Part shown: positions 6,397 to 25,990 of the stretch, one piece after another
Numbering within the stretch: the first letter of the stretch is position 1
Layout of the letters: every line of letters starts with the position of its first letter
Source of the DNA: Bacteroidota bacterium
GTDB taxonomy: Bacteria > Bacteroidota > Ignavibacteria > UBA10030 > UBA8401
DNA: 35,521 bases
NCBI GenBank assembly: GCA_020052095.1
Contig: JAGVPT010000160.1
Span: 1-35,521 of the forward strand
Direction: 5' to 3'
The notes under the pieces: generated by a model
The model's input: only the letters and a program-made list of their open reading frames with translations
What the model was told of the DNA's origin: nothing
The model's database searches: none
Made by a program: the position numbers and the translations under genes

Positions 6397-6570
6397 TGGA
6401 GTAACGGAATGGTGGAATGATGGAATGATGGAATGATGGAATAGTGGAATAGTGGAATAGTGGAATAGTGGAATGATGGAATGATGGAATGATGGAATGA
6501 TGGAATGATGGAATGATGGAATGATGGAATGATGGAATGATGGAATGATGGAATAGTGGAATAATGGAAT
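6390..6570. repeat. 8-bp tandem array, about 22 units of GGAATGAT/GGAATAGT
   Basis: Twenty-two 8-base units run head to tail from 6390 to 6565 plus a partial unit. Most are GGAATGAT; a block of four at 6438-6469 and single units at the edges read GGAATAGT, and units 2 and 3 are degenerate (GGAGTAAC, GGAATGGT). The first unit contains the TAG stop of the FmdB-type gene. Open frames within the array encode only HHSIIPSF-like repeats and are not genes. With the inverted arm after it, the array fills the whole gap between convergent stop codons. Confidence 0.95.
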
Positions 6571-13256: not shown

Positions 13257-14069
13257 TCACTCATACCTATCCAACTTAAAACTCTCACCCAGGTACAACT
13301 TCCGCGCTTCGGGGTCGTTCGCGAGATACTCGGCAGTTCCTGCCTTCAATATCTTCCCCTCAAACAACAAGTAGGAGCGGTCGGTGATCGAAAGTGTTTC
13401 GTGCACGTTATGGTCTGTGATAAGAACGCCAATGCCTCGCGAGCGCAGTCCGGTGACGATTCTCATGATCTCTTCCACCGCGATCGGGTCGATGCCGGCA
13501 AACGGCTCGTCGAGCAGAATGAACTTCGGGTCGGTGGCAAGGGCGCGCGCTATTTCCGTTCTACGCCGCTCGCCGCCTGACAGAACATACCCTTTGCTCT
13601 TTGCCAGGTGCGCCAATCCGAATTCTTCAAGCAAATGGTCGCATCGCACAGCCTGATCCGTTGGTAAAAGCGTCGTCATCTGCAACACCGAGAGCACATT
13701 CTCGCGCACGGTCATCGTACGAAAGACAGAAGGTTCCTGTGGAAGATAGCCAACACCCGCGCGAGCTCGCTTATACATCGCCATGCGGGTAATATTCTTA
13801 TCATCGAGATACACATCACCCTTATTTGGCCGGATCATTCCTACGATCATATAGAATGTGGTCGTCTTCCCGGCGCCGTTCGGGCCGAGCAAGCCGACAA
13901 TCTCTCCTTGCTGAACGTGCACCGAAACATTATTCACGACCGCTCTCTTTTTATAGAGCTTCAGAAGATTGTCAGCGCGAAGGATTTTTCGGGTATTATC
14001 AACCTGAGTGCCGTTGCCTCCACCTGGCCCGGCAGCCGGATCGACAAATATATTTTGCGCGTCTGTCAT
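13257..14069 (-). CDS. lptB: LPS export ABC transporter ATP-binding protein LptB
   Basis: The cytoplasmic ATPase that powers extraction of lipopolysaccharide from the inner membrane with LptF and LptG. At 270 residues it is about 28 longer than E. coli LptB; the extra is a Gly/Asp-rich N-terminal extension (FVDPAAGPGGGNG). Walker A is GPNGAGKTT at 62-70, the Q-loop YLPQEPSVFR at 108-117, signature LSGGERRR at 163-170, Walker B FILLDEP at 183-189, and the switch His220. YLPQEPSVFR and LSGGERRRTEIARALA are characteristic of LptB. The start overlaps the upstream OstA-type gene by four bases. LptF and LptG are not in the window. Confidence 0.95.
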   Translation of the reverse strand: MTDAQNIFVDPAAGPGGGNGTQVDNTRKILRADNLLKLYKKRAVVNNVSVHVQQGEIVGLLGPNGAGKTTTFYMIVGMIRPNKGDVYLDDKNITRMAMYKRARAGVGYLPQEPSVFRTMTVRENVLSVLQMTTLLPTDQAVRCDHLLEEFGLAHLAKSKGYVLSGGERRRTEIARALATDPKFILLDEPFAGIDPIAVEEIMRIVTGLRSRGIGVLITDHNVHETLSITDRSYLLFEGKILKAGTAEYLANDPEARKLYLGESFKLDRYE

Positions 14070-15337
14070 AGATTTTTAATACTAGGAAATATTGACTTCA
14101 GCGAAGGTCGGTCGTTCCTCAACAGGAATCCGTCAAGATTGTACGATCCCTCCTTCTTCGAAACCATGTTTTCAGGATAGTACGTTCCCTCTATCCCCTT
14201 TACGATGCGGATGATGTCGATCTTCCCGCTCACAAAGGTCATCGTAATAGCGTCACCAGTTGTCTTGTTGCAGCCGTTTGGCTCCTTGCCATCGTATAAA
14301 TAGTAGAGGCTGGTCGCATTCCGGTCGACGATCATCTCTCGAAGTTTGTCGTCCGCAAAGTGCATTTCGATCTTTCTGCCGGTAAGTTGATTGTAGCGCC
14401 AAGTGTATGCGCTATCACTTCGTGAGAGCGCAAACGCCCTCCCTACGATGATGGCTTTCTGCAATTTATTGTGCACAAGCCGAAGCGAAATCGAATCACC
14501 CGTTGCTTGATTATCTTCATACCATACCACCGGCTGCTGCCGTAATTCGATAAACTCGTCCTTTGTGAAGTACTTCGCCCACCCGCACCGGACGGCCAAA
14601 GGTCCTCGCACCATTGCAACGCTGTCAGTCGCAACCAATTTCTTGATCGAATCGTCATACGACTCCATCACAAGACTCTTCACCGCGAACGTATCAATTT
14701 CACCATTTGCCGAAGTATCGATTTGCATCAGGCGTGGCTGCTGTGTGATCCTGCTGTATCGGGCATCGTCGAAATGCTCAAGGTACTCGCCAAACAACTG
14801 GACATTGTTGGCAGCATTGACGACCTTCACATTCCGCACGGCGATGGACTTCCGTTCCTTCTCAAAATACGTCAGCTCATCGCTGAAGATTGTCGTGGTG
14901 GAATCAATCACGCGGACATGCGAATGAAAGAATGCCCTTTTCTCTTCCGTGAAGTACGTTCCAAAATCGGCCAGAAGCACGACATGTTTCGTCTCTAAAC
15001 GGACGCCGCCTTCGCATACGGCCTTTTTTGTATCGCCGAAATACATCCCCTTCTTTGCCGTCAGCGTTACCGTGTCCCGAACAACTTTTACTTTCCCGAT
15101 CAATTCAACTTCGTTTTTTGCAAGGTGCTGCACGGCACGCTCGCACCACACCCGAACGCTTCCTTGTATCAGGTGAACGTTACCGGTGAACTCGCGGACA
15201 TCTTCTCCATTTACGCTTTTGCCGACGAAAACATCGGCGTTCTTCAAGATGATAAGGTCCTTCTCCTGCGCGGAGAGACTGGACACGGAAAGAACGAGAA
15301 TAAGACAAAACAGAATTACGAGCAGAACAGATTTCAT
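14066..15337 (-). CDS. OstA/LptA-like periplasmic LPS transport protein
   Basis: A 423-residue exported protein with a signal peptide (MKSVLLVILFCLILVLSVSSLSAQ). The mature part is a long beta-jellyroll repeat of the OstA type: FTGNVHLIQGSVRVWCERAV, then VELIGKVKVVRDTVTLTAKKG and AVCEGGVRLETKHVVLLAD, in which each repeat places a GNV/GKV turn before a strand pair. Such proteins form the periplasmic bridge for LPS between LptC and LptD. It is more than twice the length of E. coli LptA (185), as is common in this phylum, with the later repeats more divergent. It lies between lptC and lptB, which fixes its role well. Confidence 0.85.
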   Translation of the reverse strand: MKSVLLVILFCLILVLSVSSLSAQEKDLIILKNADVFVGKSVNGEDVREFTGNVHLIQGSVRVWCERAVQHLAKNEVELIGKVKVVRDTVTLTAKKGMYFGDTKKAVCEGGVRLETKHVVLLADFGTYFTEEKRAFFHSHVRVIDSTTTIFSDELTYFEKERKSIAVRNVKVVNAANNVQLFGEYLEHFDDARYSRITQQPRLMQIDTSANGEIDTFAVKSLVMESYDDSIKKLVATDSVAMVRGPLAVRCGWAKYFTKDEFIELRQQPVVWYEDNQATGDSISLRLVHNKLQKAIIVGRAFALSRSDSAYTWRYNQLTGRKIEMHFADDKLREMIVDRNATSLYYLYDGKEPNGCNKTTGDAITMTFVSGKIDIIRIVKGIEGTYYPENMVSKKEGSYNLDGFLLRNDRPSLKSIFPSIKNL

Positions 15338-15384
15338 TTCCTTACACCGTACTCCTTATGTCTCGTTTCTGCCGTCTCAGAGCA

Positions 15385-15924
15385 CTATTGCGGCTTTGCT
15401 GTGCCGGTGACTCTGAATATTTTGTAATTCTTCAGATTTTGGTCGGACTCGAATCCATGCCCCTGCAGCTTCTCTTTCGGGGATGTGATTTTCACAAAGT
15501 CGTTCGAGTGGATAAGTTGTCGGGCGTTATCCCAAAAGAGCTTGTCCGTCTCCACAACCACGCCGCTGTCCGACACGACGACAACGTTCCCGATCGCTTC
15601 CAGATTGTTCGTCGACTCGTCGACTTTTCCCGTTAACGACGTCAAGACAGAGGAATGGTTTCCGGCCTCGTCAAAGAAATCAAGATGCACGCCATTGTCG
15701 AGCATCGTTTGCCTCGACGCCTCAAATGCGGAGAGGTGTCCCGCTTTCAGGATCGCTTTAACGATCCCGGAATCTGTGAACGTTACAGTGGTGTTCCAGC
15801 TTTCCTGAGTGGGGAGCGTGGCGCTCGACACGCCGCCAAGGACGGAGGGTTTGATCTTTTCTTCACAACCGTTCGTAAGTAACAGGATAGACACGAGAAA
15901 AAAAAGAATTCTGATGTTCACCAT
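15385..15924 (-). CDS. lptC: LPS export periplasmic protein LptC (lipoprotein-like)
   Basis: LptC accepts LPS from the LptB2FG transporter and passes it to LptA. The 179-residue protein starts with a hydrophobic leader ending LLTNGC, a lipobox that would lipidate Cys20; E. coli LptC has a transmembrane anchor instead. The body contains FTDSGIVKAILKAGHLSAFE, LDFFDEAGNHSSVLTSLTGKVDESTNNLEAIGNVVVVSDSG and ETDKLFWDNARQLIHSNDFVKI, matching the LptC/YrbK jellyroll. The ATG is one base after the kdsD TGA and lptA follows after 47 bases, so it is within the operon. Confidence 0.9.
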   Translation of the reverse strand: MVNIRILFFLVSILLLTNGCEEKIKPSVLGGVSSATLPTQESWNTTVTFTDSGIVKAILKAGHLSAFEASRQTMLDNGVHLDFFDEAGNHSSVLTSLTGKVDESTNNLEAIGNVVVVSDSGVVVETDKLFWDNARQLIHSNDFVKITSPKEKLQGHGFESDQNLKNYKIFRVTGTAKPQ

Positions 15925-15925
15925 A

Positions 15926-16909
15926 TCATCCTTGTTCCCGTGTTGCCAAACCGGCCTTCACCAGATCGTGGAGATGCACCATGCCGACAGGATGATGATC
16001 CTCATCCACGATGATCAACTGTGTAATGTTGAAATTCTCCATTTCTCGCAGCGCGGTCGCAGCCAACGCGCCGAGCAAAATAGTTTTCGGTTTCCTGGTC
16101 ATCACTTGATCGGCGGTGACGCTGGAGACATCCGTTGTTCCCTGGAGAAGCCGGCGCAAGTCGCCATCGGTGATAATGCCGCAGAGCTTTCCCTTCTCGT
16201 CCACGACGCACGTGGCGCCCAAACGCTTTGTCGTCATCTCGAGAATCGAGTCCCTCAGACTTGTCGATAGGGAGACTATAGGAATGTGCGTCCCGCTCGT
16301 CATCAATTCCTCGATCTTCAACAGCAAGCGCTTGCCAAGATTTCCGCCAGGATGAAACATGGCAAAATCTTCTTTGCTGAAATTTCTTTTCTCCAACAAG
16401 GTGATCGCCAGCGCGTCCCCCATCACCAGCGTCGCGGTCGTCGAAGAAGTCGGCGCCAGGTCGAGGGGGCATGCTTCTTCTGCGACCGAAATATCGAGAA
16501 CAACGTCAGACTCTTTTCCGATCGGCGAGTTCAACGTGCCGAGCATTGAAATAACCGGAACGCCGATGCGTTTGAACATCGGAATGAGTTGACGAATCTC
16601 CTGCGTATCGCCGCTTTTAGAAATACAGATGACGACGTCTTCTCCACGCACCATTCCCAGGTCTCCGTGCACCGCGTCCGACGGATGGAGAAAGATCGCG
16701 GGTGTGCCGGTGGAATTCATTGTGGCGACAATTTTCCTCGCGATAATGCCCGATTTGCCCATACCTGTAATGACAATGCGACCCTTTGCCTCGAAGATAA
16801 TCTGCACAGCCTGCGCAAACGATCCATTGATCTTGTCTACGAGCGCGGCGACCGATTGTGCCTCGATACGGATCACCTGCTTCCCTTTTTCAATTTCGAA
16901 TGATTGCAT
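15926..16909 (-). CDS. kdsD: Arabinose-5-phosphate isomerase (KpsF/GutQ family)
   Basis: It converts ribulose 5-phosphate to arabinose 5-phosphate, the precursor of Kdo. The 327-residue protein has an N-terminal SIS sugar isomerase domain with GMGKSG at 49-54, HPSDAVHGDLGM at 75-86 with the likely catalytic His81, and SKSGDT at 97-102. Two CBS domains follow (about 205-325; TDGDLRRLLQ, then HHPVGMVHLHDLVKAG). Architecture and length match KdsD. It lies two bases before the unknown 265-residue gene's end and one base before lptC, so the LPS role is well supported by context. Confidence 0.95.
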   Translation of the reverse strand: MQSFEIEKGKQVIRIEAQSVAALVDKINGSFAQAVQIIFEAKGRIVITGMGKSGIIARKIVATMNSTGTPAIFLHPSDAVHGDLGMVRGEDVVICISKSGDTQEIRQLIPMFKRIGVPVISMLGTLNSPIGKESDVVLDISVAEEACPLDLAPTSSTTATLVMGDALAITLLEKRNFSKEDFAMFHPGGNLGKRLLLKIEELMTSGTHIPIVSLSTSLRDSILEMTTKRLGATCVVDEKGKLCGIITDGDLRRLLQGTTDVSSVTADQVMTRKPKTILLGALAATALREMENFNITQLIIVDEDHHPVGMVHLHDLVKAGLATREQG

Positions 16910-16911
16910 GT

Positions 16912-17709
16912 CTATTTTCTAAATAATGATGCGACTCTCTCGAGTAACGTTATCTTCGTCTTCGGGAATAGTACAGTCCCCAGGTCGACTTTCTTTCTCA
17001 GTTTATTGTAATGAACAAATGCCGCCGTCAAATCGGGATCGGAGAACATATGAAGGTCTTTGAAAAAATTATCGGCGGCAAGAGCCCGTTCGGGATCCCG
17101 GATGTTCTTGTAGAGCATCAGCGCGTTGTGGAAATTTGTCACGGGAATAAGATGATTCACGCCGTCCCGTGCATCACAGATCCACAACCGTCTATCGCTC
17201 ACGCAGACAGCCAGTGTTGCGTCGGAGCCGATCTCGCGCCTGATGGTCACTTCACGCGGAGGCCGGCAGCATATCGGGCACGGTTGCTTAGGCGTCCAAA
17301 GAGAGAAATTCCATCGCCGCTTTTCCGTGAAGTGCTCTGGAATTGTCTCGCCCTTCACGTTCACAATCTCAAACTCAAGCTGGTTTTCCAATAACTCCCG
17401 AAGCGTGACTGAAATGTCCGCCCGGTCAGCCTCGATCATCCCATACGCAAGGACTTGAGGAAGGGGCGATTCGGCGTCGGCAATTGTGCTCGGTTCCGCC
17501 AGAATATAATTTCCCGATCCTCGTCGTCCTTCTCCGACAACCTTCCACATCGATATATATTTTCGATACTCATTGTACCCCGGTTTGTCTTCCGGGAGAA
17601 GCCAAAGCAACGTCGCTCTTTCAAATGGAGTTAACGCCCGGGGAAAAAGCGCCTGCTGTCCGTTGTGCGGAGACCTCCCGCCTTCTTGAGCCATAACGCT
17701 CACATCCAT
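16912..17709 (-). CDS. Unknown Cys-rich protein inside the Kdo/LPS operon
   Basis: I do not recognise this 265-residue protein. It has no signal peptide or membrane segment and should be cytoplasmic. Visible features are an N-terminal LTPFERATLLWLLPEDKPGYNEYR helical stretch, a central alpha/beta part, and a cysteine group: Cys144, 147 and 148 in PCPICCRPP, then Cys169 (LAVCVSD) and Cys178 (WICDARDG), which could form a zinc site. The C-terminus is a helical segment with ALAADNFFKDLHMF. The start overlaps kdsA by 10 bases and kdsD follows after 2, so it is embedded in the operon. An in-frame ATG at 17694 is an alternative start. A role linked to Kdo or LPS is suggested by context only. Confidence 0.75.
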   Translation of the reverse strand: MDVSVMAQEGGRSPHNGQQALFPRALTPFERATLLWLLPEDKPGYNEYRKYISMWKVVGEGRRGSGNYILAEPSTIADAESPLPQVLAYGMIEADRADISVTLRELLENQLEFEIVNVKGETIPEHFTEKRRWNFSLWTPKQPCPICCRPPREVTIRREIGSDATLAVCVSDRRLWICDARDGVNHLIPVTNFHNALMLYKNIRDPERALAADNFFKDLHMFSDPDLTAAFVHYNKLRKKVDLGTVLFPKTKITLLERVASLFRK

Positions 17710-18530
17710 GCATTCTCTTTTACGAGGGAATCTATTTCGACGACTTGTTGGAGCAATTCTTCGAGCCGTGCCAGAGGGAGTTGACTTGCCGTGTCGCTCA
17801 GCGCTTTTGACGGTTCGGGATGTGTCTCGATAAACAAGCCGTCGATTCCAACAGCAGCGCCGGCCCGGGAAAGTGGGAGAATGTATTGTGGCTGACCGCC
17901 GCTCCTTCCCTCTTCGCCGCTCGGAAGCTGCACCGCGTGCGTAGCGTCCAGCACAACCGGATAACCGAGCGAGCGCATCACGGTAAGGCCTCGCATATCG
18001 ACAATAAGATTGTGATAGCCGAAGGAAACGCCCCGCTCTGTAAGGAGAATTTTTTCATTCTTCGTTGACGCGACTTTCTCAATCGGATGCTTCATGTCTT
18101 CCGGGGCCAGGAACTGTCCCTTCTTGATGTTCACAACTTTTCCCGTCTTTCCCGCTGCGATCAACAAATCTGTCTGTCGGCATAAGAATGCAGGAATTTG
18201 AATCACGTCTGCGACTTGTGCAGCCGACGCAACTTCTTCGGCCGTGTGAACATCGGTCAGGATCGGAATTCCGAATTGCGACTTTGCCTCGGCTAAAATC
18301 TTGAGCGCTTCATCCATCCCAATGCTTGTAAATCCACCCACGCTCGTCCTGTTTGCTTTCTTGTATGACGACTTGAAGATAAACGGAACATGGAGGCGCG
18401 ATGTGATCTCTTTTATCTTCTCTGCTGTCGCAAAAATCATGCTCCGGTTTTCAACGACGCATGGCCCGGCAATCAACACGAGAGGATTGTTGCCGCCGAT
18501 AGGAATGGAATTGACGGTGACGGTTTTCAT
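17700..18530 (-). CDS. kdsA: 3-deoxy-8-phosphooctulonate synthase (Kdo-8-P synthase)
   Basis: It condenses arabinose 5-phosphate with PEP to Kdo 8-phosphate, the product line fed by kdsD in the same operon. ATG at 18530 gives 276 residues starting MKTVTVNSIPIGG, the usual length; a longer frame from TTG 18581 adds 17 unlikely residues. Motifs are IAGPCVVENRS at about 20-30, FIFKSSYKKANRTSVGGF, LTDVHTAEEV, QIPAFLCRQTDLL, and IETHPEPSKALSD. Cys24 in AGPC is where metal-dependent Kdo-8-P synthases have a metal ligand and metal-independent ones have Asn, so this enzyme is predicted metal dependent. It is the first gene of the operon. Confidence 0.96.
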   Translation of the reverse strand: MKTVTVNSIPIGGNNPLVLIAGPCVVENRSMIFATAEKIKEITSRLHVPFIFKSSYKKANRTSVGGFTSIGMDEALKILAEAKSQFGIPILTDVHTAEEVASAAQVADVIQIPAFLCRQTDLLIAAGKTGKVVNIKKGQFLAPEDMKHPIEKVASTKNEKILLTERGVSFGYHNLIVDMRGLTVMRSLGYPVVLDATHAVQLPSGEEGRSGGQPQYILPLSRAGAAVGIDGLFIETHPEPSKALSDTASQLPLARLEELLQQVVEIDSLVKENAWM

Positions 18531-18658
18531 AGTTTTCAGTATCAAAATAGCGATCTTTTCAGGGAAAGTAAAGAAGGGCAAAACGGAGCAATGCCCCGGT
18601 TTGCTTGAGACAGAGAGACTCTCGTGACTCGGCCCATCAAATCTTTACCGAGGATGTC

Positions 18659-19148: not shown

Positions 19149-20681
19149 TCATGGCATCACTGAGCTTCCAGCCGTCATCAAGAAAAGAAATATCCCACCT
19201 GCAAGTGCACACCCCCAATTCACGACATCGTTATCGATCCAGCGAACACCGCGGACCAGCACAGAAGATCTTCCACAATGGATTGCCCGTTCGGTGATTT
19301 TTCCGCAGACTGTGCAACGATACTGAGCTTGCACCGTCGCCCCTAGGAGACTGTCGACAAGCGCGCCTAATATTCCGGCACAGATAATAATGATGAAAGT
19401 TAATGTGGGAGCACTCCCGCGAAACCAGAAGCTCCCGCTCAGCACGAGGAGCGACGCGCCGAGTACCCCGCCAACAAATCCTGACAGCGATACCCCGCCG
19501 CTCGTTCCGGCTTCTACTTTTTTCAAAGAAGTAATCACTCGGGGCGAGCCCTTTGCCAAAAGGCCAACTTCAGTCCCCCACGTATCGGCGGTGACCGCGG
19601 CCAGCGAAGCAATGTAGACCAAATACCACGCGTTGTTTTCCGGGAAGATATACCAACAAAGAATCACAATACCGGCAACACTGCCGTTTGCCGCAACCTG
19701 CCCGGCGTCGCGCGTGTCGGTCTTTTCAAACATTAGTCGAAACTCTTCTTTCTTTCTTTTTCCGAGTTTCGAAAGGAGGCTCGACAATATGAAAAATGTC
19801 AGAATCGGAATTGTCCATTGCCAGCCGCCAACGCCGAAGATGATCGTTGCAAGAAGAAATGTCCCCACGCTTCCGCTTGCCGAGAGAAAACGAAAGTAAT
19901 AGGATGCGATCGCCAGAGCAGCAGCTAGCGCCATTCCTAGGAGAAATTGTTCATGGTGATGGTGCGGAAGCTGGACGAGAAAATAATGGAGAACAAAAGC
20001 CGCGGAGAGAGGGATGGTAAGGTTATCAAATCCTTTTGAGGAAATCGACTCCCATGCGGTGACGAAGAGAGAAACCGCGAGGGTGAGCAAGAGAGTGAAA
20101 CGAAAATCAAGATTGAGACTAGTACCGAAATTAAGGGCAAGAGAAGAGTTAAGGAGAAATAGAACGACGAACAATGTCGTCGCAAACATGGTTGCGGAAC
20201 CTTCAATGGATTTCTTGTCGCTCGTCAGATAGTAGAGATGCGGGGCGGCGAGGTTTTCGCCCACAATTGCCGCGGCAGCGTCGCTTAACGCAAGCACGAG
20301 AATGGAGATCGAGATAATCTGCGGTACCGAGTCCCAGAAGAGGAGTACGAGTATCAGGAACGAGAGGGGATAATAGACCGCACCGTACGATCGCCGGTTG
20401 GTTCCATGGATACCTTTGAGTAACCCAAATCGCACTGCCGCGAAATTGACGAGTGAAAAAACAAGTACCAAGAGAATCGCAGGTATTCCGGAAGAGAACA
20501 ATCGAGGCGCAAAGAAAATGAGAATGCCGGTCGAAATGTGAACAAGCTTTCGCGTCACTTCCGGCGACCAATTCAACTTCTTTCTGATGAATTCCGCAAT
20601 CCCAATGAACGATCCCAACCCGAGAAAGATCAGGCAAAAGATCAGCCATTCAGAATTCGAGGGGGAAGCTAAGAGACGCAT
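19149..20681 (-). CDS. Fused polyprenol/phytol kinase-like and DUF92 (VTE6-like) membrane protein
   Basis: A 510-residue multi-pass membrane protein with two parts. The N-terminal half (about 1-235) is of the SEC59/VTE5 lipid kinase type: EVTRKLVHISTGI at 41-53, SYGAVYYPLSF at 98-108, ALSDAAAAIVGENL at 131-144, and KKSIEGSATMF at 156-166. The C-terminal half (about 245-505) is a DUF92 domain: RDAGQVAANGSVAG at 324-337, ADTWGTEVG at 365-373, GTSGGVSLSG at 392-401, DSLLGATVQAQYRC at 443-456 with Cys456, Cys459 and Cys469, and NDVVNW at 484-489. In plants and cyanobacteria VTE5 phosphorylates phytol and VTE6 phosphorylates phytyl phosphate, so the fusion could turn an isoprenoid alcohol into its diphosphate. 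The substrate here is unknown. No ribosome site is seen before the ATG. Confidence 0.82.
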   Translation of the reverse strand: MRLLASPSNSEWLIFCLIFLGLGSFIGIAEFIRKKLNWSPEVTRKLVHISTGILIFFAPRLFSSGIPAILLVLVFSLVNFAAVRFGLLKGIHGTNRRSYGAVYYPLSFLILVLLFWDSVPQIISISILVLALSDAAAAIVGENLAAPHLYYLTSDKKSIEGSATMFATTLFVVLFLLNSSLALNFGTSLNLDFRFTLLLTLAVSLFVTAWESISSKGFDNLTIPLSAAFVLHYFLVQLPHHHHEQFLLGMALAAALAIASYYFRFLSASGSVGTFLLATIIFGVGGWQWTIPILTFFILSSLLSKLGKRKKEEFRLMFEKTDTRDAGQVAANGSVAGIVILCWYIFPENNAWYLVYIASLAAVTADTWGTEVGLLAKGSPRVITSLKKVEAGTSGGVSLSGFVGGVLGASLLVLSGSFWFRGSAPTLTFIIIICAGILGALVDSLLGATVQAQYRCTVCGKITERAIHCGRSSVLVRGVRWIDNDVVNWGCALAGGIFLFLMTAGSSVMP

Positions 20682-20687
20682 GGTGAT

Positions 20688-20834
20688 GGAGTAGTCAGTG
20701 GTTAGTAATCAGTAGGCAGTAGGCAAGTAGGCAATAGGCAATAGGCAATAGGCAATAGGCAATAGGCAGTAGGCAATACCGGTAGGTAGAAACTGTCCCT
20801 TACTGCTTACTCCATACTCCCTACTGGCTACTCC
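20688..20834. repeat. Heptamer TAGGCAA array with inverted flanks
   Basis: Nine units of TAGGCAA/TAGGCAG (one of eight bases) lie at 20713-20776. The left flank starts GGAGTAGTCAGTGG at 20688; the right flank 20799-20834 is an imperfect reverse complement (GGAGTAGCCAGTAGGGAGTA on the minus strand), so the whole block can fold as a large imperfect hairpin. The TAG in the right GGAGTAG is the holA stop codon. The left end reaches close to the ATG of the kinase/DUF92 fusion. Confidence 0.85.
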
Positions 20835-23100: not shown

Positions 23101-23814
23101 ATAATATATAAGCCCGAAGCCGATCCCTACGACAAACATCGAGAGCGACGCCGTCTGGCCGAGATTTCGCAACTCGTTACCGCCGCTGTTTTTTAATTTT
23201 CCAAAAGATTCCCACCGCATATCGCCGCTGATATAGCCGAACAGGTGTTCGTCAAAAGCGGTTTCCCCGACAGCGTGTGCTTTAATCCCGATACCTCGGG
23301 CAGTATACGTTGAATTCGTTCCGTAGACTGAGTTACTCTGCTCAACCGACCCAACGTGATATCCGACTCCTCCCCCTAATTTCACAAAATATCCCTTTCC
23401 GGGAATAACATACTGGGCGATCGCCGTGGGCATATGAATATTGTAGAAGAGCGTGTATGTTCCTGCATTCGATGTCGGCAGTGTATATGATTTGAAGAGG
23501 TACGCATACTCGAGCGCCCCGCCCCATTCATCACTCAGGGGGAATTCTGCCCCCCCGAAGAATTCGACATCGGTTGCAAATTCGCTGGTGCGTTGCGAGG
23601 AATTTGCGATCATGTTGATGTAATCGACCATGGCCGGGGCGGCTGCAAGTTTCACGCCCATGCCGCCGTACAAAGAGAATGCGTTTTCCCTTTCCTTTGG
23701 AAGTTCGCTCTGCGTCAGCGTTCGTGGCTGCGAATATGAAAGGCGTACGGCGCAAACAAGGCAGACGACGAGTACGACGGTTTTGCGGATTCCGGCGAGA
23801 CGCTCATAGCTCAA
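23095..23814 (-). CDS. Probable outer-membrane beta-barrel protein
   Basis: A 239-residue exported protein if TTG at 23814 is the start (MSYERLAGIRKTVVLVVCLV...SYSQ, a plausible signal peptide). A longer frame from 24054 only runs antisense-in-frame through the upstream oxidoreductase gene and is unlikely. The mature part has alternating aromatic and small residues with Gly-rich strands (FGGAEFPLSDEWGGALEYAYLF, YFVKLGGGVGYHVGSVE, HLFGYISGDMRWESFG) and ends GIGFGLIYYF, a C-terminal aromatic as in beta-barrels. The start overlaps the oxidoreductase stop by 11 bases, so the two are probably co-translated. Ligand or role unknown. A GTG at 23826 is an alternative start. Confidence 0.7.
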   Translation of the reverse strand: MSYERLAGIRKTVVLVVCLVCAVRLSYSQPRTLTQSELPKERENAFSLYGGMGVKLAAAPAMVDYINMIANSSQRTSEFATDVEFFGGAEFPLSDEWGGALEYAYLFKSYTLPTSNAGTYTLFYNIHMPTAIAQYVIPGKGYFVKLGGGVGYHVGSVEQSNSVYGTNSTYTARGIGIKAHAVGETAFDEHLFGYISGDMRWESFGKLKNSGGNELRNLGQTASLSMFVVGIGFGLIYYF

Positions 23815-25957
23815 CAGGCAGCCCACTCTCAAGTGATTCAATAATTCTGAATGTCGCACGAGTTGTAGCAACAAGACTCTCGAAGGCAATGAGGTCGTTC
23901 GCCATGTGAATTGAATTGATGAACTTCTCAACTTCAGCCTTGTGTCCTTTTTCGACCGCAAGCGTCTCGTACACCTTCCTTGAGCCGCCATGATATGTTT
24001 CGAGGCGCTTGAAATTGTCGACAACGGCGGTCTTCCCTCCCGAAAAAATTTCAATCCGTTCCTTCGGCACCGCGCTGTCGCCGTTCGCCAGATACGTGAT
24101 CACTCCAACCGAACCGTTCGAGAAGCGAATCGTCAGCGCCACGTTATCGCTTTGTGTTCTTGCCCCGGTCAGCGAAAGCGACTGCGCGAAAACGCTCGTC
24201 GGCTCGCCGTCCGATAGGTATTGAATCGTGTCGATGAAGTGGCACACCTCGCCGATAATCCTTCCTCCCCCTTCCACGGGATCGTGCGTCCAATGATCTT
24301 TCGGCAAGAAGCCTGCATTAATTCGATAGTTCAGCATCATCGGTTCGGCCGCATCGGCAAAAAATTCCTTCGCTTGAATTACAGAGGGGGAGAATCGCCG
24401 GTTAAAACCGACCATGAAACGAAGATGTGAGTGTTTTTTTGAAGCTCGATATGCCTTAATGATCTCCGAAAGCTCGTCTTCGTTGAGGGCCATCGGTTTT
24501 TCTACAAAGACATGCTTGTGGTGCTTCAGGGCCTGCACGCAGAGAGAAGCGTGAAGATTATGCCTCGTTGCGATGAAGACCGTATCGATATCTTTGGACG
24601 CGTAAATTTCCTTGGGGTCGGTTGCGGCGAATTCAAACCCGAATTTGCGCGCCACATTCTTCGCGTTCAATCCATTGGAAGTGCACACGCCTTTCAGCGA
24701 AACCGATTTTTTGTCGATGAACGGAAGTAGCGAGCTTTGTGCAAAATTTCCGGCGCCGATGAATCCGATGGAGAGCGACGCCTTCGATTCCCTTGGCGGA
24801 GCCACTGCCACTATTTTTGGCGCCGATTTCGCAGCGGGTGGATATTCCAACAGGACACCGATATAGCGTTCCTTCTTTTTGCCCGCAATCATCTCATAGG
24901 CTTTGAGTGCATTCTCAATCGGAAATGTATGCGTCGTCAATTTCTGGACATTCACTTTTTTCTCCCTCACGAGCCGAAGAAATTCTTCCATGTTACGCCG
25001 TTCCGTCCAGCGCACGAATCCCAGCGGGTAATCGTGACCTTGTTCTTCATAGGCTTTATCGTACCGTCCGGGTCCGTAAGAACGCGAGAGTCTGAAATCC
25101 AACTCCTTCATATAGTATGGCGCGCGTGGGATGGTGATGCCGACGTCGCCTACGAGCACGACGCGGGCTTTGTCGCGCGCTATTTCGCCGGCGAGTTGTA
25201 CAGGATCACTGCTTGTTGTCGCGGCCGTAATGATGACCGCGTCAGCTCCATGCCCGCGAGTGTGAGATTGTATATCGGCGTGGAGACCGCCTGCCGATCT
25301 GCGAAATGCGGCGTCGGCGCCGAGAGTTCTTGCGAGGGCGACTGCTTGCAGATCGAGATCGATCCCGATCACTGCACATCCGGCCGCTTTCAATATCTGA
25401 ATCGTGATCTGTCCGACCAATCCAAGTCCAATCACAACAATTGTCTCACCCAGCGTCGGCGCAGTTTGACGAACACCCTGCAACGCAATCGCTCCGACGG
25501 TTGTGTACGCCGCATCTTGCATGGAAACTTCCTCCGGCACCTTCACGCAAAGATTCTTGGGGACAAAAAGAACTTCCGCATGATTCGCGGAACTCCCGCC
25601 GCACGCAACCCGGTCTCCGACGGCGAAATCATCGACGTTGTTTGCGACGGCGATGACGGTTCCGGCAGAACTGTATCCCATCGGACCGAATGCCTCGAGC
25701 TTCGCCATTACTTTCTTGTAAACGTTCCAGACCCCCTGATGCCTCATTTGGTTGAGCACAAGCTTTACCATGTCGGGATTGGACTTCGCTTTGGAAAGGA
25801 GGCCCTCCTTCCGTTTCTGAACGGAGGATCGCTCCGTTCCGGCACTGATAAGGGAGTACTCATTGCGAACGATAACGCCGCCCCGTCGCAGCGCCGGCTC
25901 CGGCACTTCCTCGACATGCATCGTTCCTTTTTTCATTGCTTGCGAAAGTTGTTTCAT
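23804..25957 (-). CDS. Bi-domain oxidoreductase: zinc-type alcohol dehydrogenase fused to Gfo/Idh/MocA domain
   Basis: A 717-residue cytoplasmic protein. About residues 1-375 are a medium-chain dehydrogenase/reductase: SAGTERSSV near 40, GYSSAGTVIAVANNVDDFAVGDRVACGG near 95-120, and the nucleotide motif VVIGLGLVGQ near 175-185. From about 395 a Gfo/Idh/MocA domain begins: IGFIGAGNFAQ, HKHVFVEKPMAL with the EKP motif, and GGGRIIGEVCHFIDTI with the conserved His. The ATG at 25957 has AAGGTG 8 bases upstream; a GTG at 25966 is also in frame. Such fusions often sit in sugar or glycan biosynthesis clusters, but no glycan genes are adjacent here, so the substrate is unknown. Confidence 0.85.
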   Translation of the reverse strand: MKQLSQAMKKGTMHVEEVPEPALRRGGVIVRNEYSLISAGTERSSVQKRKEGLLSKAKSNPDMVKLVLNQMRHQGVWNVYKKVMAKLEAFGPMGYSSAGTVIAVANNVDDFAVGDRVACGGSSANHAEVLFVPKNLCVKVPEEVSMQDAAYTTVGAIALQGVRQTAPTLGETIVVIGLGLVGQITIQILKAAGCAVIGIDLDLQAVALARTLGADAAFRRSAGGLHADIQSHTRGHGADAVIITAATTSSDPVQLAGEIARDKARVVLVGDVGITIPRAPYYMKELDFRLSRSYGPGRYDKAYEEQGHDYPLGFVRWTERRNMEEFLRLVREKKVNVQKLTTHTFPIENALKAYEMIAGKKKERYIGVLLEYPPAAKSAPKIVAVAPPRESKASLSIGFIGAGNFAQSSLLPFIDKKSVSLKGVCTSNGLNAKNVARKFGFEFAATDPKEIYASKDIDTVFIATRHNLHASLCVQALKHHKHVFVEKPMALNEDELSEIIKAYRASKKHSHLRFMVGFNRRFSPSVIQAKEFFADAAEPMMLNYRINAGFLPKDHWTHDPVEGGGRIIGEVCHFIDTIQYLSDGEPTSVFAQSLSLTGARTQSDNVALTIRFSNGSVGVITYLANGDSAVPKERIEIFSGGKTAVVDNFKRLETYHGGSRKVYETLAVEKGHKAEVEKFINSIHMANDLIAFESLVATTRATFRIIESLESGLPVEL

Positions 25958-25990
25958 ACTCAACACCTTAAAAGTTGGGTAACAGGTTCA

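Follow-up and report, generated by a model that had tools for sequence, protein, structure and literature searches.

The window, i.e. the whole stretch of DNA that was analysed (35,521 nucleotides, a contig from an Ignavibacteria genome of the Bacteroidota), carries on its minus strand, at 19149-20681, an ATG-started open reading frame of 510 amino acids, exactly where an earlier note on this DNA had placed a gene; the plus strand of the same interval is interrupted by many stops. A chance frame is excluded by the PF01940 match of the encoded protein and by fused orthologues, of which 18, full-length or nearly so and 44-66% identical to the window protein, came from the 40 nearest genomes, with about 90 distinct fused proteins gathered across the FCB phyla. 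A simple hydropathy scan gave ~12 hydrophobic segments, and AlphaFold2 modelling of the full chain with 19 sequences (a check that the earlier note had suggested) returned a confident, all-helical model of two domains (pLDDT 85.3, pTM 0.85). The product is a membrane protein joining two enzyme domains, as had been claimed, with DUF92 recognised by PF01940 and the kinase-type half by profiles. Its features are as follows.

19149-20681, minus strand: whole gene, fusion of a COG0170-type kinase and DUF92, 510 amino acids (ATG-started frame, fused orthologues in relatives)
19974-20681, minus strand: domain resembling CTP-dependent prenol/lipid kinases (VTE5/SEC59/COG0170 type), residues 1-236 (profile matches to stand-alone kinases)
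20538-20552, minus strand: charged clamp R44-K45-L-V-H48 (R44 and H48 in 90/90 fusions; K45 in 77/90, the position holding K, R or Q)
20199-20282, minus strand: CTP-binding motif of the dolichol kinase type, D134xxAxxxG141...K156-K157-S-x-E160-G161 (D134, A137, K157 and G161 in 90/90, G141 in 89)
20022-20051, minus strand: acidic motif E211...G217-x-D219-N220 (E211, D219 and N220 in 90/90; E...DN also in stand-alone kinases)
19197-19928, minus strand: DUF92/COG1836 (VTE6-type) domain, residues 252-495 (PF01940, E 1.3e-64)
19497-19586, minus strand: core motif A-D366-T-W-x-T-E371-x-G373...G392-T-x-G395 (D366, T367, W368, E371, G373, G392 and G395 in 90/90)
19275-19316, minus strand: putative metal-binding ribbon C456-x-x-C459...H468-C469 (all three Cys in 75/90 fusions, none in 15)

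The fusion gene follows holA at a distance of 146 bases and precedes kdsA (KdsA being called from a DAHP-synthetase-family match together with gene order), and in the window's family it keeps this place between holA and kdsA, adjoining kdsD-lptC-lptA-lptB. The corresponding LPS run of the window (13257-18581, minus strand) consists of a KdsA-type synthase, a 265-aa protein (16912-17709) that has no Pfam match, a SIS/CBS KdsD-type isomerase, LptC, LptA/OstA and an LptB-like ABC ATPase. The interval separating holA from the fusion start holds a tandem array of the heptamer TAGGCAA (20713-20778, 9.3 copies), which was not seen at the same place in the relatives scanned. Elsewhere in the window, an 8-base tandem array, GGAATGAT, occupies 6406-6570 (~20 copies, 94% matches), and a second fusion protein of 720 aa, a zinc-binding alcohol dehydrogenase domain followed by a GFO/IDH/MocA oxidoreductase, is encoded at 23804-25966. 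Outside the window's family the neighbours of the kinase-DUF92 fusion differ. Among 80 loci compared, holA comes before the gene in about 16 and no isoprenoid gene shows a consistent linkage; in the stretches examined, the fusion does not adjoin the archaeal-type lipid genes.

The assignment of the C-terminal half to DUF92, as the earlier note had it, is clear, the PF01940 match scoring 218.4 bits against a curated cut-off of 27.5. To the same family, and likened on that membership, belongs VTE6 of Arabidopsis (At1g78620; COG1836), a plant phytyl-phosphate kinase (PMC9782597), which acts on phytyl phosphate as a separate plastid protein, unlike the fused DUF92 half, and a cyanobacterial member has been reported as essential in Synechocystis (PMC3223725). 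Modelled alone with 94 sequences, the half reaches a pLDDT of 94.1, and its best PDB match is a CDP-DAG synthase (4q2g, TmCdsA), at a weak E of 0.17 and a probability of 0.75; Foldseek returned nothing at E < 0.001 for either the whole model or the C-terminal half, TmCdsA ranking third and first, respectively. COG1836 has been placed in the cytidylyltransferase superfamily by published HHpred comparisons (PMC5898192), and it is on these that the superfamily link rests, since hhalign between the two halves (0.3% with ~20 sequences; 16%, E 0.0016, with 90, D134 being aligned to D366) is no proof of homology. Besides the core motif, K320, R324, Q328, V329, N332 and G333 are invariant in the 90 distinct fusions. 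Since none of the predicted catalytic residues varies in this set, in either half, both halves look active.

The cysteines at 456, 459 and 469, which the earlier note had singled out as possibly metal-binding, were correctly placed, and His468, present in 74 of the 75 fusions that keep all three, completes the set. Intermediates between full presence and full absence do not occur among the 90 fusions, and from this all-or-none pattern the set is probably a metal-binding ribbon that is dispensable, its full loss in 15 fusions making a catalytic role unlikely.

Assigning the N-terminal half takes more effort. As a single sequence, residues 1-236 gave nothing useful in Pfam, NCBIfam or PDB searches, so that profiles were needed to show the likeness to kinases. 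Of 20 homologues, 8 matched PF01148 in this half (best 2e-5), a family that includes both kinases and CdsA (phosphatidate cytidylyltransferase), and the two types therefore had to be told apart by further comparison. A profile of the N-terminal half retrieved stand-alone proteins of ~220-240 residues at ~66-110 bits in nearly every genome examined, whereas CdsA-type proteins reached only ~20-28 bits, one genome giving just this weak kind. Likewise, hhalign matched it to the stand-alone kinase set (placed in COG0170 by motif and size) at 99.1% (E 6e-19) and to CdsA at 92.4% (E 5e-7), the latter alignment spanning the CTP motif and one adjoining stretch. The CdsA C-terminal signature PS01315 (SxxKRxxxxKD...HGGxxDRxD, a pattern validated on the CdsA set) was found in 17/17 CdsA, 0/31 stand-alone kinases and 0/91 fusions. 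CdsA thus has the CTP-binding motif in common with the N-terminal half, and probably the fold too, but differs in its signature and in the far lower score. These comparisons group the half, as predicted from sequence, with stand-alone CTP-dependent lipid kinases (COG0170/VTE5 type) and not with CdsA, in line with the kinase-type reading of the earlier note, which had set it against a cytidylyltransferase match.

The motifs point the same way. VTE5, FOLK and PfPolK (phytol, farnesol and geranylgeraniol kinases) are single-domain proteins, of which those that have been characterised prefer CTP (PMC9782597, PMC10849223), and can be likened to the N-terminal half via the R-K-x-x-H clamp and the CTP motif: in PfPolK, an assayed prenol kinase, a charged clamp of R29, K30 and H33 has been proposed (PMC10849223), to which R44-K45-x-x-H48 corresponds. 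Compared with the described dolichol-kinase CTP motif (PMC5853391), DxxAxxxG...K[KR][ST]xEG, that of the N-terminal half is present but lacks one motif glycine and has a longer spacer; a relaxed form is found in 72 of 91 fusions and 31 of 31 stand-alone kinases. The stand-alone bacterial relatives have ~30 fewer N-terminal residues than this half of the fusion. One of them, of 221 aa, is encoded in the window's genome itself, downstream of ftsH and adjoining hisG (L138:3569-4234; G000:C194). The same genome has its own CdsA besides the fusion.

The architecture as such is already known, having been described in Methanosarcina (Makarova, Galperin and Koonin 2015, PMC5898192): the archaeal arCOG02245/COG1836 proteins (Mbar_A3310 of Methanosarcina barkeri), compared here by their description, have the same order of an N-terminal COG0170 (dolichol-kinase-like) and a C-terminal COG1836/PF01940 domain, and the same prediction was made for them, an isoprenoid step that needs kinase activity. 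The archaeal fusions have uppS as a conserved neighbour, whereas uppS is unlinked in the FCB fusions. The survey of the fusion and its surroundings (proposed in the earlier note within Chlorobiota and Ignavibacteria) found it across the FCB superphylum, in Ignavibacteria, Calditrichota, KSB1, Neomarinimicrobiota, Chlorobiaceae and others, fused or stand-alone status being called from the matched span and the open frame. Plasmid records gave one distant DUF92-like match only.

Some close relatives in the window's family (G002, G010, G011 and G014; L021-L024) lack the kinase half and have a DUF92-only gene at the same position after holA. An assembly artefact behind these genes is ruled out by the spacing in G010, where holA stops a few bases ahead of the DUF92 start, and in G011, where the two overlap by 4 bases, so that neither has space for a kinase half, and no remnant of that half was found. 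Explaining the fused or stand-alone state on the DUF92 tree takes 5 changes, and well-supported branches force 4 or more of them; gain and loss are indistinguishable from these counts, but repeated loss of the kinase half is the simpler reading, given how deeply the fusion is spread. DUF92 is the half that is always kept where the fusion is broken, and relatives without the fused kinase half retain a stand-alone kinase that may carry out the first step in its place.

As to the substrate, the window's genome encodes four UbiA proteins: a heme O synthase, one of the menaquinone/UbiA type, one resembling digeranylgeranylglyceryl phosphate synthase (DGGGPS-like) and one of the decaprenyl-phosphate phosphoribosyltransferase type. 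ChlG/BchG or homogentisate phytyltransferase is the best match for none of them; in agreement with the absence of chlorophyll genes that had been noted earlier, there is no chlorophyll synthase among the four, and a chlorophyll link was dropped. The best models for the DGGGPS-like protein are a prenyltransferase (5.7e-66) and geranylgeranylglycerol-phosphate geranylgeranyltransferase (1.3e-65), both below their curated cut-offs. GGGP synthase (PF01884, 3.7e-47; L170, G000:C69) and geranylgeranyl reductase (TIGR02032, 1.7e-70, above cut-off; PF22578 domain) are also present, and it is therefore likely, judging from gene content, that this genome encodes an archaeal-type ether-lipid pathway. The DGGGPS-like UbiA, CdsA and geranylgeranyl reductase share one contig (L175, G000:C75:8000-26500), with GGGP synthase on another. 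CarS, the archaeal CDP-archaeol synthase, is absent from the genomes examined, which rules it out as a partner of the fusion. The same set, GGGP synthase, a DGGGPS-like protein and the reductase without CarS, characterises the FCB pathway of Villanueva et al. (2020, PMC7852524), according to whom Cloacimonetes lack CarS and CdsA can substitute for it; salvage, phytol or a kinase is nowhere mentioned in the main text of that paper.

Across genomes (counted among the matches listed, in MAGs of varied completeness), all 25 sampled fusion genomes of the window's class have both GGGP synthase and geranylgeranyl reductase, compared with 3/16 and 4/16, respectively, of those with DUF92 alone (Fisher p 3e-8 for GGGP synthase, shared ancestry left uncorrected). 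The contrast also holds within a single family (f7), with GGGP synthase in 8/8 listed genomes with the fusion versus 1/12 with DUF92 alone; in its DUF92-only genomes (e.g. G073, G118, G085 and G111; 11 of 12 lacking GGGP synthase) the kinase half and the lipid pathway thus tend to be lacking together, with DUF92 retained. In relatives, the distribution of the DGGGPS-like UbiA parallels that of GGGP synthase. In other FCB lineages, outside the phylum, 41 of 49 listed fusion genomes have GGGP synthase, a figure that stands without a base rate there. The exceptions run in both directions. Chlorobiaceae (f27, named from its position beside L106 in the DUF92 tree) have the fusion without GGGP synthase but mostly with the reductase, which fits bacteriochlorophyll tails; families f30, f43, f45 and f50 have the fusion without a strong GGGP synthase match or an above-cut-off reductase match, and family f22 has GGGP synthase without the reductase. 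At least 12 genomes of the class have GGGP synthase but no DUF92, and the four genomes of the window's family that lack the kinase half keep GGGP synthase. The link is therefore not strict, since GGGP synthase occurs without DUF92 and the fusion without GGGP synthase; the common factor of the fusion carriers is, as read from their predicted genes, geranylgeranyl-chain metabolism.

Following these results, the reading that seems somewhat better than even is that the fusion is a bifunctional, membrane-embedded, CTP-using salvage enzyme that converts a prenol, most likely C20, to its diphosphate. The domain identities, conserved sites, distribution and co-occurrence are shown by the sequences, whereas both reactions, the CTP donor, the chain length and the salvage role are inferred. 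The N-terminal half would transfer a phosphate from CTP onto a prenyl alcohol, in keeping with VTE5 and FOLK, which are prenol kinases preferring CTP (PMC9782597), and the DUF92 half would add a second phosphate, also from CTP, to the resulting monophosphate, yielding a diphosphate for prenyltransferases; in one chain, the monophosphate could be passed on inside the membrane. The likeliest substrate would be geranylgeraniol, perhaps partly reduced. Its diphosphate would return to the pool from which GGGP synthase, the DGGGP-synthase-like UbiA and the reductase make archaeal-type ether lipids, possibly also to that for menaquinone synthesis, and in Chlorobiaceae the product would supply bacteriochlorophyll tails. 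Of the substrates listed in the earlier note (a menaquinone- or archaeal-like prenyl chain, farnesol, geranylgeraniol or undecaprenol), co-occurrence favours a C20 chain of the geranylgeranyl type, and an undecaprenol-type role is presumably disfavoured because a monophosphate carrier needs no DUF92 half. A narrower version, in which the fusion is a dedicated salvage arm of the FCB archaeal-type ether lipids, recycling geranylgeraniol or a reduced C20 prenol, is put forward tentatively, with the odds somewhat against it.

The nearest competitor is a broad-range prenol salvage that mainly serves menaquinone or other polyprenyl products, the association with archaeal-type lipids being a by-product of shared ancestry. 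It draws on the menaquinone/UbiA-type prenyltransferase of the window's genome, on the four families in which the fusion occurs without strong GGGP synthase or above-cut-off reductase matches, and on the retention of DUF92 in DUF92-alone genomes although these mostly lack GGGP synthase; it is nevertheless rather unlikely, as the listed fusion genomes, both in the class and outside the phylum, have GGGP synthase more often than those with DUF92 alone.

Much further down stands the idea of a lipid-alcohol kinase joined to a CDP-lipid synthase, in which the N-terminal half would act on a diradylglycerol (diacylglycerol or unsaturated archaeol) and DUF92 would produce the CDP-activated lipid. Both halves do belong, with CdsA, to one superfamily of CTP-using enzymes (PMC5898192), the C-terminal half has TmCdsA as its best fold match, albeit a weak one, and CarS is absent from these genomes; however, the genome has its own CdsA, a bacterial enzyme that can replace CarS (PMC7852524), none of the 91 fusions has the CdsA signature, and VTE6, the characterised DUF92 member, is a kinase. 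The missing signature and the separate CdsA in particular disfavour a CDP-lipid product, which appears improbable. A kinase for long-chain polyprenols (undecaprenol-type) that supplies glycan carriers, with DUF92 as an accessory, would suit the position of the gene in the window's family, between holA and kdsA and beside kdsD-lptC-lptA-lptB, as well as the UppP/BacA-like genes near 8 of 80 loci (UppP being judged by sequence) and the PF03706 flippase-like gene near 12 of 80. Yet the neighbours change outside that family, a separate stand-alone kinase exists in nearly every genome examined, and such a role needs no second phosphorylation whereas DUF92 is the half always kept, which makes it a similarly improbable explanation.

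What is new here is the context, in that FCB genomes with the fusion mostly also have archaeal-type lipid genes, a link to the fusion that is proposed here. Only for a few organisms, the majority of them plants, are the genes behind the two phosphorylations of prenol salvage known (PMC9782597), and a natural single-chain version would bring both steps into one construct on which the chemistry of DUF92 could conveniently be tested. That GGGP synthase and the reductase occur along with the fusion suggests a concrete substrate and would tie a little-characterised membrane family to archaeal-type lipids in bacteria. Judging by the kinase half, which seems to have been lost several times beside a retained DUF92, the two activities may be separable in nature.
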